Source: Isoptericola sp. BMS4 (GTDB lineage: Bacteria > Actinomycetota > Actinomycetes > Actinomycetales > Cellulomonadaceae). Taken from it: a DNA stretch of 64,000 nucleotides. The position numbers and the translations under genes were made by a program. The stretch is taken from the NCBI RefSeq assembly GCF_011634835.1, contig NZ_SIRP01000001.1:3901748-3965747 (forward strand), given 5' to 3'. Below the pieces are notes generated by a model. The model was not told where the DNA came from. It saw only the letters and a program-made list of their open reading frames with translations, and searched no databases. Shown piece after piece: positions 8,545 to 60,730 of this stretch. Each line of letters begins with the position of its first letter. Position 1 is the stretch's first letter.

Positions 8545-8609
8545 AATCAGGGCACGGGACCCTTCGGCCTCCCACTTTGGGAGCTTACCGAAGCGTTCCG
8601 TGCCCTGAT
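8545..8609. terminator. Compound hairpin between convergent genes
   Basis: Three stacked stems: ATCAGGGCACGG with its complement, CTTCGG with CCGAAG, and CTCCC with GGGAG. It follows the second small secreted gene and faces the end of the DsbA-like gene, so it probably terminates both. Confidence 0.6.
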
Positions 8610-16889: not shown

Positions 16890-16900
16890 CCCCGCCCCGG

Positions 16901-16964
16901 CGCTGTGGGTACACAGTTGGCGTGGATTCCCCGGGGAATCCACGCCAAGTGTGTACCCACAGCG
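16901..16964. repeat. Palindromic element family A, copy 2
   Basis: 64-bp palindrome with 32-nt arms, no loop and one mismatched pair, centred on CCCCGGGG. The outer arm begins CGCTGTGGGTAC, matching copy 1 at 2276-2337. It lies between convergent genes, 11 nt past the DUF4032 stop and 10 nt past the rlmB stop, so it may also act as a terminator. Confidence 0.85.
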
Positions 16965-16974
16965 AGCGGCCGGG

Positions 16975-23549: not shown

Positions 23550-23682
23550 GAGGCCGGCTGGGCCTGGGTGGCGCCGGGACAGCGGTCGGGAGGTCGTGTC
23601 GCGAGGCACGCCGCTCGGCCGCTCGTTCCTCGCGCCCTCCTGCCAGACCCAGCCAGCCTCTCGACACGACCTCCCGACCGCT
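23550..23682. repeat. Interleaved inverted repeat between convergent genes
   Basis: Two inverted repeats interlock in the order A-B-A'-B'. B is a perfect 21-nt arm (23581-23601 with 23662-23682) beginning AGCGGTCGGGAGG. A is an 18-nt arm (23550-23567 with 23643-23660) with two mismatches. The only way to pair all arms is pseudoknot-like, or as alternating structures. B' includes two bases of the ispF stop codon. Confidence 0.75.
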
Positions 23683-24181
23683 ATCCCCTGGGTTGCGGTT
23701 GCGGCACGACGAGAGCCGTCGCGATCGCCGCCACGCCCTCGCCGCGGCCGGTGAGGCCGAGCCCGTCGGTGGTGGTGGCGCTGAGGGACACGGGCGCCCC
23801 GGCGGCGTCGGACAGCACGGCCTCGGCCTCGGCGCGCCGGGGACCGAGCTTGGGGCGGTTCCCGATCACCTGGACGGCGACGTTGCCGACGTCGAAGCCG
23901 GCGTCGCGGACCCGGCGGGCGGCCTCGGCGAGGAGCACCGTGCCGCTCGCGCCGGCCCAGCGCGGCTCGCTCGTGCCGAAGTGGCTGCCGAGGTCGCCGA
24001 TGCCGGCGGCGGAGAAGAGGGCGTCGGCGGCGGCGTGCGCTGCGACGTCGGCGTCCGAGTGCCCGGCGAGGCCGCGCTCGCCCGGCCAGTGCAGCCCGCC
24101 GAGCCAGAGGTCGCGGTCGGTGTCGGCGGCGAACGCGTGCACGTCGACGCCGACGCCGGTGCGGGGCATGCCGGTGGTCAC
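23681..24181 (-). CDS. ispF: 2-C-methyl-D-erythritol 2,4-cyclodiphosphate synthase
   Basis: 166 aa from GTG 24181. Fifth step of the MEP route to isoprenoids: cyclises CDP-ME-2-phosphate with loss of CMP. GVDVHAF (metal-binding Asp and His), [16 protein letters not shown] and GDLGSHF are intact. The GTG overlaps the ispD stop codon (GTGA) and has GGAGGAG upstream. ispD-ispF are therefore translationally coupled. The stop codon is shared with the edge of an inverted repeat. Confidence 0.95.
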
Positions 24182-26357: not shown

Positions 26358-26365
26358 CGTCCCGG

Positions 26366-26429
26366 CCCGCAGCGGGACCGCAGGCCTCAGCCGTCCTGTC
26401 GCGGCCGAGGTCTGCGGTTCCGCTGCGGG
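26366..26429. repeat. Second hairpin between lipoprotein gene and pstB
   Basis: 23-nt arms (26366-26388 and 26407-26429, starting CCCGCAGCGG) with two mismatches and an 18-nt loop. It directly follows a perfect terminator and is closer to pstB, so it may be the pst terminator or a separate palindromic element. Confidence 0.6.
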
Positions 26430-26475
26430 CGGGTGCCTCGTCCCTCGGCCCCCACCCTGCGCTGCACCTCCGCCC

Positions 26476-33539: not shown

Positions 33540-33562
33540 GCCTCCACCGCGGCACCGGCACA

Positions 33563-33604
33563 CCGTCCTCGGGTCGGCACACTTTCGTGCCGACCCGAGG
33601 ACGG
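33563..33604. terminator. Bidirectional terminator phoU / PL8
   Basis: Perfect 18-bp stem starting CCGTCCTCGGGTCGG with a 6-nt loop (ACTTTC), between convergent genes. Confidence 0.8.
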
Positions 33605-33631
33605 AGTGCCGACCCGGCCGCGTCAGGCCGG

Positions 33632-37062: not shown

Positions 37063-37136
37063 GGGCCCCATCCTGCCTCCTCCGCCACGGCGCCTGCACC
37101 GCGGGCCGGATCCCGGACGCCCGCCACCCCGCCTGC

Positions 37137-37193
37137 CGAACATGTGGTTAGTCCGGGATTCGAGCCGTCAGTCCCGGTGCGACCACATGTTCG
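37137..37193. repeat. Palindromic element family B, copy 1
   Basis: 22-nt arms (37137-37158, 37172-37193) and a 13-nt loop. The left arm begins CGAACATGTGGT and ends CCGGGA; 12 outer and 6 inner pairs match, 4 middle ones do not. It lies between gpmA and the Ddn-like gene. Confidence 0.88.
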
Positions 37194-37212
37194 ACGGCGA
37201 GGAACCGCATGG

Positions 37213-37653
37213 TCAGGCGTCCGCGCGCTCCAGCACGAAGACGGGGATCTCGCGGTCGGTCTTCTTCTGGTACTCGGCGTAGTCCGGGTAGGCGGCCACC
37301 GACCGCTCCCACCACAGCGCCTTCTCGTCGCCCGTGACCTCCCGGGCGACGTACTCGTGCTTCTCGGGGCCGTCCTGCAGCTCGACCCGCGGGTGCGCCA
37401 GGACGTTGTAGTACCAGACGGGGTGCTTCGGCGCACCGCCCAGGGAGGCGACGACGGCGTACGCGCCGTCGTGCTCCACCCGCATCAGCGGCGTCTTGCG
37501 GACCTTGCCCGTCCTCGCCCCGACGGTGGTGAGGACGACGACGGGCATCCCGCGGAGCGTGGTGCCCGTCGTCCCTCCGGACTCCTCGTACTTCGCGACC
37601 TGGTCGGCCGCCCACTGCGACGGGCTGGGGACATACTCTCCGGTGATCGGCAT
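37213..37653 (-). CDS. Deazaflavin (F420)-dependent nitroreductase family protein (Ddn/DUF385)
   Basis: 146 aa. A split-barrel flavin-fold protein of the Ddn family, which use F420H2 to reduce quinones or nitro compounds in actinobacteria. [18 protein letters not shown] (cofactor phosphate contacts), [19 protein letters not shown] and HPRVELQDG are family motifs. The natural substrate is unknown; defence against oxidative stress is one possibility. It is flanked on each side by a family B palindrome (copies 1 and 2). Confidence 0.87.
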
Positions 37654-37696
37654 ACCTCGTGCAATCGTGTGCCCGGGCCCAGCATTCCCGTCCCGC

Positions 37697-37753
37697 CGAA
37701 CATGGGGTTCGTCCGGGACTTACGGACTCGTTCCCGGATCCAGACCATGTTCG
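37697..37753. repeat. Palindromic element family B, copy 2
   Basis: 22-nt arms (37697-37718, 37732-37753) around a 13-nt loop. Left arm starts CGAACATGG and ends TCCGGGA. It lies between the divergent Ddn-like and AbiEi/DUF559-like genes, 44 nt upstream of the former start. Confidence 0.88.
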
Positions 37754-37889
37754 GCCGCGAGAATAGACATGGTCGACGGTGGCGGCGTGAGCGCTCGACG
37801 CTGCCCACAGCCACCGTCCCGACCGGCGTCGTCCCCACGGGCCGCAAGATCGCCACGACACACGCCACGGACTCGGCAGGGTCCCCGGC

Positions 37890-38876: not shown

Positions 38877-38901
38877 GGCCGACCATGCGGTTCCGGGGTG
38901 T

Positions 38902-38958
38902 CGAACATGTGATTGGTCCGGGACTGGAGGAGTCGATCCCGGACCAACCACATGTTCG
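38902..38958. repeat. Palindromic element family B, copy 3
   Basis: 22-nt arms (38902-38923, 38937-38958) with a single mismatch, and a 13-nt loop. The best-paired copy. It lies between the convergent AbiEi/DUF559-like gene and mshA, 21 nt from the mshA stop, so it may also terminate transcription. Confidence 0.9.
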
Positions 38959-38978
38959 GCACCCGTGGGGGTGGGGGG

Positions 38979-57867: not shown

Positions 57868-58419
57868 TCAGCTGTACACGTGCGGGGCGAGCGTGCCCAC
57901 GAACGGCAGGTTGCGGTACTTCTCCGCGTAGTCCAGCCCGTAGCCGACGACGAACTCGTTGGGGATGTCGAAGCCCACGTAGCGCACGTCGACCTCGACC
58001 TTCGCGGCGTCCGGCTTGCGGAGCATGGTCGCGATCTCCACCGACTCCGGCCCGCGCGAACGCAGGTTCGCCACGAGCCAGGACAGGGTGAGCCCGGAGT
58101 CGATGACGTCCTCGACGATCAGCACGTTGCGCCCGGTCAGGTCGGCGTCGAGGTCCTTGAGGATCCGCACCACGCCCGAGGACTTGGTGCCGGAGCCGTA
58201 GGACGACACGGCCATCCAGTCCATCTGCACGGGGTGGTGCAGCCGGCGGGCGAGGTCCGCCATGACCATGACCGCGCCCTTGAGGACGCCGACGAGCAGG
58301 AGGTCCTGGCCCGCGTAGTCCGCGTCGATCTTCGCCGCCATCTCGTCGAGCTTCTCCCCGAGCTGTTCCTCGGTGAGCAGGATGTCGGCGAGATCGCCGG
58401 AGACGTCCGACTGGTCCAC
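57868..58419 (-). CDS. hpt: Hypoxanthine phosphoribosyltransferase
   Basis: 183 aa from GTG 58419 with AGGAG upstream. Salvages hypoxanthine/guanine. [17 protein letters not shown] and the PRPP loop [14 protein letters not shown] are diagnostic. It starts 3 nt after tilS, in the conserved tilS-hpt-ftsH order. Confidence 0.96.
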
Positions 58420-58422
58420 GTG

Positions 58423-59586
58423 TTACTCCTCAGGGCGCGGGAAGTGCTGGGGCGTACCCGCGGCGGTGAGCGGCGGGTGCAGGAAAAGACTGCCACACGC
58501 TCGCCGGGCGCGGGCGTCGCCCGGCAGGTGGACGGGGCCCTGCCCACGCCACGAGACGACGAGGGCGTCCAGCGCGTCGACGTGCCGCGCCGTCGTCGCC
58601 CCGGCGGGGCACCCTGCCGCGAGGGCCGCCGCCCGCAGCGCGCGACGGCGCAGGGCCGGGTGGGCGGCGGCGAGCACGCCGGCGTCCAGCACGAGCTCCC
58701 CCCGGCTCGCGGCCGGGTCCTGCGCCGTCGCCGAGGCGAGCACCTCGGAGGCGAGCTCGTCGAGCAGGTCCGCGTCGTCGCGCAGCTGGTCGGCGCTGCG
58801 CGCCAGCGCCTCGACGACGCCCGGCCCCAGGCTCGCCTCCAGGACCGGCAGCACCGCACCGCGCACCCGGGTCCGCCCCGGCACGTGCCGAACATGTGGT
58901 TGATCCGGTTCTTCGGCCGTGAAACCGGGAGCAACCGCATGTTCGGCATCGGTGGCGGGCAGCAGGTTGGTGGGGTCGGTCCAGAACTCCAGGCCGAGGG
59001 CGGCGCAGACGGCCTCCGTCTGCGCCCGTCGCAGCCCCAGGAACGGCCGGCGCAGCGGCCCGCGCCGCCGCGGCATGCCCGCCAGGGAGCGCGCCCCGCT
59101 CCCCCGCGCCAGCCCCAGCAGCACGGACTCCGCCTGGTCGTCGAGGGTGTGGCCCAGCAGCACGGCCGCGGCGTCGCGGGCCGCGGCCTCCTCGGCGAGG
59201 GCCGCGTACCGGGCCTCGCGCGCGGCGGCCTCGAGCCCGCCCGCGCCCGGCCCGTCGTCGACCGCGACCGTCCGCACCACGACCGGGTCGAGCCCCAGGG
59301 TGCGGCACTGCCGCGCGGCCTCCGCCGCGACGTCGTCGGACCCCGGCTGAAGCCCGTGGTCCACGACGACGGCGCCGGCACGGACCGCGAACCCGCGCGA
59401 GCGCACCGACCGGCCCACGCGCCCCGCCTCGAGCGCCGTCGCGCCCGCGAGCGCCAGGCTGTCCGCGCCCCCGGAGCAGGCGACGAGCACCAGGCCGCCC
59501 GGCGCGAGACCGCCGTCGGCGAGGTCCGCCAGCTCCGCCCGGACCGCGCCGCGCGCGGCCGCGAGGGCGGGGTCCACCTGTGCCAT
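58423..59586 (-). CDS. tilS: tRNA(Ile)-lysidine synthetase carrying an in-frame palindromic insert
   Basis: 387 aa from ATG 59586 (GTG 59595 possible). It converts C34 of tRNA-Ile(CAU) to lysidine, needed to read AUA. The PP-loop [24 protein letters not shown] and [21 protein letters not shown] are intact. After [13 protein letters not shown] the usual short loop is replaced by about 19-20 residues (about 214-233, beginning EHAVAPGF and ending HVR) encoded by family B palindrome copy 4; the normal [20 protein letters not shown] then resumes. The frame stays open, so the enzyme is presumably active. Confidence 0.92.
58889..58945. repeat. Palindromic element family B, copy 4, inside tilS
   Basis: 22-nt arms (58889-58910, 58924-58945) with a 13-nt loop, the same geometry as copies 1-3. 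Outer arm CGAACATGTGG pairs with CCGCATGTTCG. Its 57 nt equal 19 codons and contain no stop in the tilS frame. Confidence 0.9.
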
Positions 59587-59632
59587 CCGGATCACGCCTC
59601 TCGACGGGTCGACGGGTCGCTCGTCGCGGCGG

Positions 59633-60730
59633 TCAGCCGTGCACGCGCCGCACCCAGGCGCGGGGGTCGTGGATCTCGCGGGAGGACGGCAGGTGCTCCG
59701 GCGACGACCAGACGGCGTTGAGGCCGTCGCGGCCGACGCGTCCCTCGACGCCGCGCACGAACGCGGCGCCGTCGCGGTACTGCGCGAGCTTGGCCTCCAT
59801 CCCGAGCACCCGGCGCAGCACCGCGTCGAGCGTCGGGGCGCCCTCCCCGGAGCGCCGCTTCTCGAACCGTGCCCGGATGGTGCGCACGGTGGGCACCACG
59901 CGGCGCCCGACGGCGTCCATCATCACGTCGGCGTGGCCCTCCAGGAGCGCCATGACGGCGGTGATCTCCGCCAGCTCCTGGCGCTGCGCCGCGGAGAGGA
60001 GCTCGTCGAGCGGGGTGACGAGCTCGCCCCGCACCGCACGCAGGACCGTGCGGCCGGCGACCGCGAGCTTGTCCCGCAGCGGCGCCTTCACCATCCGCAC
60101 CGAGCCGGTCGCGACGTCCTGCAGCAGGTCGCCCACCCGGGCGCCCAGGTGGTCGGCGAGCCAGGGCGCGGCGGCGAACTGCAGGGCGTGCGTCTGCTCG
60201 TGCAGGCACACCCAGAGCCGGAAGTCGCGCGGGCGCAGGTCCAGCGCCCGCTCGGTCGTGAGGATGTTCGGCGCCACGAGCAGCAGCCGCCCGCAGGCGG
60301 TGCCGTACGGGTCGAACTGGCCGAGGACGCGCCCGGAGAGCAGCGCGAGGAGCGCGCCCACCTCGGCGGCTCCGGCGAGGCGCGCGGCCGACGACGTGGT
60401 GACGGCCTCCGGCGCGAGCGACCGGGCGACCGGCTCGGTCATGGTCCGCATGGACGTCAGGTTCGCCCGCGCCCAGGTGGCCCGGTCGACGACGTGCACG
60501 TCGCCGAGGTCCTCCGGCGCCCGGCCGGCGCCGGGCGTCATGCGGGTGGTGGTGAGCACGTGCTCGACGGCGGTGCCGGCGGCAGAGCGCAGCCCGTCGA
60601 CGAGGTCGGCGAGCTCGGCGCGCGGGGCGGTGAGCCCGGGCCTGGCCAGGCGACCGGCGAGCTGGGCCGCGGCCGTCCAGTCCAGGAGCGGCTCGACGGC
60701 CCGGTCGGGGGCCGGGGTGGGTGTGGTCAC
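59633..60730 (-). CDS. DUF2342 zinc metalloprotease-like protein
   Basis: 365 aa from GTG 60730. Contains [14 protein letters not shown], an HExxH zinc motif, and [20 protein letters not shown], whose Glu and His may complete the site. This matches the actinobacterial DUF2342 family, described as associated with coenzyme F420 gene sets; a Ddn-like F420 enzyme occurs 22 kb away, but the link is weak. TACCGT ends 6 nt before the start, suggesting leaderless transcription. Likely cytosolic. Confidence 0.83.

Follow-up and report, generated by a model that had tools for sequence, protein, structure and literature searches.

A dispersed palindromic repeat in frame within tilS, and TilS linkers as a possible recurrent landing place for protein-coding palindromes in an actinobacterial family

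How does a repeat found mostly between genes come to be read as part of tRNA(Ile)-lysidine synthetase, and what would let the enzyme keep it? The question arises in the window, by which we mean the whole 64,000-nucleotide stretch of DNA analyzed here, where the original prediction placed a 57-nt palindrome at 58889..58945 within an otherwise normal tilS. This interpretation is supported. The reading frame is open end to end, the palindrome has its best match elsewhere in the same genome at an E-value of 2.8e-13, and codon shuffling of the loop yielded an equally good stem in 0/300 trials. The element is nevertheless longer than proposed, with a 61-nt core that reaches 63 nt with its end bases, and the added stretch, correctly described as free of stops, amounts to 21 rather than about 19 codons (Table 1). 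The host gene retains the PP-loop domain, the TilS substrate-binding domain and the TilS fold, the top fold matches of its product being the TilS structures 2e89, 3a2k, and 1ni5.

The two arms, at 58886-58906 and 58928-58948, are 90% complementary, and the element begins 6 residues past the end of the FWTDPTN motif; the distance of 13 residues given earlier holds when counted from the start of the motif but not from its end. Excising 63 nt preserves the frame and leaves LLPATDVPG ahead of RTRVR, a linker that resembles the LLPTGGTATVPA preceding RTRVR in a sister species (G011), while excision of the 61-nt core alone would disrupt the frame. In the Geobacillus enzyme (3a2k) the counterpart of this linker reads DPSN-EKDDYTRNR.

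Table 1. Features of the window around tilS and the intergenic copies of the same repeat
Feature	Position	Strand	Remarks
tilS, tRNA(Ile)-lysidine synthetase, host gene	58423..59595	-	390 aa; domain and fold matches
63-nt palindromic element, family B, in frame in tilS, +21 codons	58886..58948	-	core 61 nt, 58887-58947
hpt, hypoxanthine phosphoribosyltransferase, 3 nt downstream of tilS	57868..58419	-	domain matches
zincin-like metallopeptidase gene, upstream of tilS	59633..60730	-	gene map and domain match
family B copy between convergent genes	38900..38960	.	61 nt, intergenic
family B copy, 17 nt from the 3′ end of minus-strand gene 37213-37653	37135..37195	.	61 nt, intergenic
weaker family B copy (42.9 bits, weakest of the window's three intergenic copies) between divergent predicted genes	37695..37755	.	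61 nt; outside the 45 places counted in the genome

The element belongs to a large dispersed family, here called family B. Used as a query against its own genome, the tilS stretch returned 76 two-strand matches and a covariance model of the repeat returned 96, which together with closer inspection gave at least 45 places; 46 were examined, and one, at 1539556, was removed after it proved to be another palindrome. The core measures exactly 61 nt in all 39 of the first-aligned copies and 60 nt in one further place, and the three intergenic copies in the window that had been recognized as similar in size are indeed real, each as long as the tilS core. Across 37 copies, changes on both sides are seen at 17 of 28 pairs and 93.1% of the cells pair, a level of covariation that 0/500 shuffles equaled on any of five measures.

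By gene maps from our own codon-usage gene finder, 41 of the 45 places are intergenic (7 between convergent, 24 between tandem, and 10 between divergent genes), and 27 of the 31 copies that face a gene 3′ end lie within 35 nt of the stop codon. These intergenic copies, mostly just past stop codons, probably act as, or are tolerated as, transcript-end hairpins, but a role purely as terminators does not fit the 10 divergent copies. Two further copies nominally inside genes, at 776629 and 798748, lie at N-terminal ends and were judged start-site artifacts, leaving two that we judge truly intragenic, in tilS and in a gene for a CoA-transferase of family III, both read in one frame (AEH...HVR). The latter gene (L177:1500-2894; 4290499-4291893 in the genome of the window) carries its in-frame copy at L177:2079-2139, within a variable linker, and relatives whose linker is readable have a different sequence there. 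We discarded the idea of a repeat shaped to avoid stops: depending on the frame, 27-32 of the 37 copies have an open core, and among 61-nt stretches drawn at random from the window 85% are open as well. The family B model (R1) matches 12 of 18 genus genomes, the window's own included, but it rewards hairpins as such and scores the Myceligenerans insert too, so that some of what it matches in other genomes may be hairpins of other kinds. Sister species (L153-L170) have palindromes, about 60-70 nt long, whose ends are similar (mostly GCCGAACA or GCCGAGCA) and whose inner stems are different yet complementary.

Is the site empty in relatives, as an insertion would have it? The tilS site was read in 16 genus relatives (a 17th, G006, gave a partial match and was left out), and family B is absent there from all 16. 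The linker that follows the WxDPTN motif is 30 aa long in the window and 7-18 aa in 14 of the 16, in line with the prediction of a clean absence; the other two, with linkers of 26 and 29 aa, carry a different palindrome. The comparison is one between species, the nearest TilS proteins being 78% identical. Neither close relatives of equal length free of palindromes, nor conservation at the protein level with changes that break the palindrome, was found. The loop described earlier as normally short is so in those 14 relatives, but spans roughly 7-50 aa across the wider family, which indicates that the site was already permissive before the insertion. The linker is variable in sequence too, with tandem repeats in G030 and G020. 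Members of genus g14 (L025, L233, L235) have, in this linker, tandem repeats made of the conserved WDDPTN motif itself or of its variants.

We consider it highly probable that a mobile palindromic repeat entered tilS at a linker that tolerates differences in length, and that it came in as a block of 63 nt, which left the frame intact and made the protein about 21 residues longer. Copies of the dispersed repeat would have spread by a mechanism that works without a Y1/RAYT transposase, and one of them would have entered the linker past the WxDPTN motif. Palindromes that land in genes would mostly be purged by selection, and TilS would retain them since its linkers tolerate extra residues; the near-absence of AUA codons perhaps also lets the enzyme keep such inserts.

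The case was put forward as a notable one for actinobacteria; it is not isolated, as other palindromes occupy the same and two further TilS linkers across the wider family. The first linker, that of the window's site, also holds strong palindromes in G004, G005, G027, and G222; when the loop was delimited in 140 of 145 tilS loci (a set that includes one genome twice and one outgroup), these four and the window gave stem scores of 15-20, and the other 135 loops 12 or less. The second linker, starting at about residues 264-290, has palindromes in G012, G193 (Myceligenerans indicum), G102, and G010, and the third has one in G023 and weaker ones in G221 and G214. At a score of at least 15, 138 tilS genes (154 kb) contain 11 stems, 9 of them in linkers, against none in 352 neighboring predicted genes (165 kb), a control in which loci were fetched only for tilS, tilS was assigned by homology, and genes were not matched for linker variability. 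The other two stems, in L232 and L032, fall in none of the three linkers; we took them for chance and left them uncounted. In a larger set of DNA from the family, a score of at least 17 was reached by 9 stems in tilS (155 kb), one of which, spanning 130 nt in the window's own tilS, was set aside as probably chance, and by 2 in other genes (590 kb). With the window and G194 included, the species whose TilS linkers carry palindromes come to eleven. A quick tree of 124 tilS rows, which left out 20 loci, requires at least 11 changes for 12 labeled species and does not join G004 and G005 in one clade.

In the named loci, 70 tilS genes, some from the same family, held four stems that score at least 15: those of M. 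indicum (the G193 gene), Phycicoccus sp. Soil802, L089, and L039, the last two wider or in conserved sequence. In the Phycicoccus gene, which lies outside the family studied, the second linker contains a compact palindrome in frame (L062:2214-2265). Genes other than tilS also serve as hosts. A CofC-like gene in the window's own genome (L175:2161-2874) harbors, in frame, a 56-nt palindrome of a different kind (L175:2553-2608), and a GDSL hydrolase gene in G216 (L343:991-2112) and a MobA-like gene in G194 (L373:1097-2014) carry in-frame palindromes of local repeat families; TilS is thus a frequent but not the sole host.

Are the other inserts mobile as well? The six that were searched, from G004, G027, G222, G005, G012, and G193, all have further copies in the genomes that carry them. 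For the G012 insert there are about ten, two of them 99% identical over the full 80 nt; the G222 insert gives 27 two-strand matches; the G004 and G027 inserts have a few other places each, and that of G005 has one. In M. indicum, the tilS copy has three exact counterparts over 68 nt and two more over 67 nt elsewhere in the genome, which suggests recent movement. A match in G194, obtained with only the 68-nt palindrome as query, turned out to fall in tilS, where linker and frame agree with those of G193; this may reflect common descent, conversion, or repeated insertion. Neither 80 nt (G012) nor 68 nt (G193) is a multiple of 3, so the net insertions there must include further bases.

As for what moves the repeat, the Y1/RAYT transposase (PF01797) can be set aside for this genus, as it is absent from all 18 genus genomes, with a control search that matches 5 of 14 well-known genomes. 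No target-site duplication was evident by eye in the flanks of three palindrome families, and no plasmid or phage record matched a family B copy with its flanks. Identity with a known structured RNA was likewise rejected: in 10 loci and positions 30000-64000 of the window, no Rfam match reached the gathering score, the 10 below that threshold including 9 to microRNA models.

The repeated use of TilS linkers, when neighboring genes have no comparable stems, would also be expected if tilS DNA were the preferred target of the mover, over and above any tolerance of the product. Copies elsewhere, however, sit in varied contexts, and the occupation of three different linkers by differing palindromes makes a single recognition site unlikely; we regard such a choice of site as unlikely. 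Selection might instead maintain the insert, with a strong mRNA hairpin or the added peptide tuning TilS or attenuating the downstream hpt and ftsH. The strong predicted fold of the loop RNA (-46.7 kcal/mol), the tight same-strand spacing of tilS and hpt (Table 1), the repeated gain of palindromes by TilS linkers, and the identical place and frame in two species of the Myceligenerans group are all consistent with this, but in the tilS copy decay is comparatively advanced, with 22 of 30 arm pairs intact (sixth lowest of 37 copies; median 28), the peptides at the site differ between palindromes, and 135 of 140 loops do without one. We hold a selected role to be decidedly improbable.

Two more trivial readings fare worse. 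The linker is variable and in places built of tandem repeats, as a chance palindrome or low-complexity stretch in fast-changing sequence would have it, but chance would not explain why 44 other places in the genome are specifically similar, and with the outcome of the codon shuffles this reading is scarcely tenable. For a decaying tilS or an assembly error, nothing speaks apart from the insert itself, whereas the frame is fully open, both domains are present, the gene lies on a 4.32-Mb contig as the single tilS match in the genome, and the predicted structure is confident; we hold either to be very improbable.

This predicted structure also bears on how the insertion of the mobile repeat could be borne. 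The window's TilS is modeled with a mean pLDDT of 91.7, and the insert forms a low-confidence stretch (pLDDT 56-67) ahead of a helix; helices at model residues 187-196 and 237-253 flank it, and a single short helix occupies 211-216. In the M. indicum model the insert is at pLDDT 35-55, and the cores of both models are confident. Judging from these models, the insert is probably an unstructured surface loop; that the enlarged TilS is active we infer.

Demand for the enzyme may matter as well. AUA codons number 1 in 18,736 in the predicted genes of the window and 5 in 47,451 in other stretches of the genome, and tolerance through low demand for TilS is plausible (cf. JBC 2025, PMC12514573), because in GC-rich genomes that use almost no AUA a reduced efficiency of TilS would cost little. 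More tentatively, with the balance of our judgment slightly against, TilS could be a recurrent landing place for several unrelated protein-coding palindromes in the Cellulomonas–Promicromonospora family, a near-abandoned codon having made the enzyme a safe harbor for mobile DNA. If so, bacteria that have lost more of their AUA codons should carry a heavier load of inserts in TilS linkers.

How does this compare with known systems? Protein-coding palindromes have been described chiefly from Rickettsia and other Gram-negatives, in the portions of the sources used here (PMC2229807, PMC3733652). Rickettsia palindromic elements (RPEs), for which the same portion of PMC2229807 names no known mover, lie between genes and in frame within conserved protein genes, and a guanylate kinase that bears one remains active with altered substrate affinity. 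The tilS element is likewise a dispersed palindromic repeat in frame in a conserved protein gene, a likeness by description across a different phylum and GC content; here the elements measure 61-80 nt rather than 105-146 nt, and one gene is hit over and over. Repetitive extragenic palindromes (REPs) of the GTAG and CGTC families are small palindromes often just past gene 3′ ends and sometimes within ORFs, including tRNA-modification genes, and two Xanthomonas species have them at approximately the same recB site; tilS goes unnamed in the main-text section on intragenic REPs (PMC3733652, in part). Ours differ in being longer, near-perfect palindromes of actinobacteria in whose genus no Y1/RAYT transposase was found. 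They work like RPEs and REPs but are not a RAYT–REP system. MITEs such as ERIC and Correia share the short, non-autonomous format with terminal inverted repeats, and in-frame gene fusions are known (PMC2229807, in part), but here nearly the whole element is palindromic and no target duplication was evident by eye. Behavior like that of RPEs or MITEs is most likely.

Among titles and abstract openings, none described palindromes from tilS or from this bacterial family, a query for tilS and palindromic being dominated by papers on tumor lymphocytes; what seems new is that such elements occur in actinobacteria and that palindromes of several kinds have used one enzyme repeatedly. Several kinds of palindrome in GC-rich actinobacteria, converging on one conserved translation enzyme, amount to natural replicate insertions in one protein, with which both the movement of palindromes without a known transposase and the question of whether a conserved enzyme turns insertion-tolerant as demand for its product falls become testable.

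The window holds other strong palindromes, at 2255-2358, 8546-8609, 16891-16974, 23576-23687, 26362-26433, and 33556-33611, five of the six between convergent predicted genes. Those at 2255-2358 and 16891-16974 have CTGTGGGTAC near their ends in common with the place at 1539556, and the three look like one further family.
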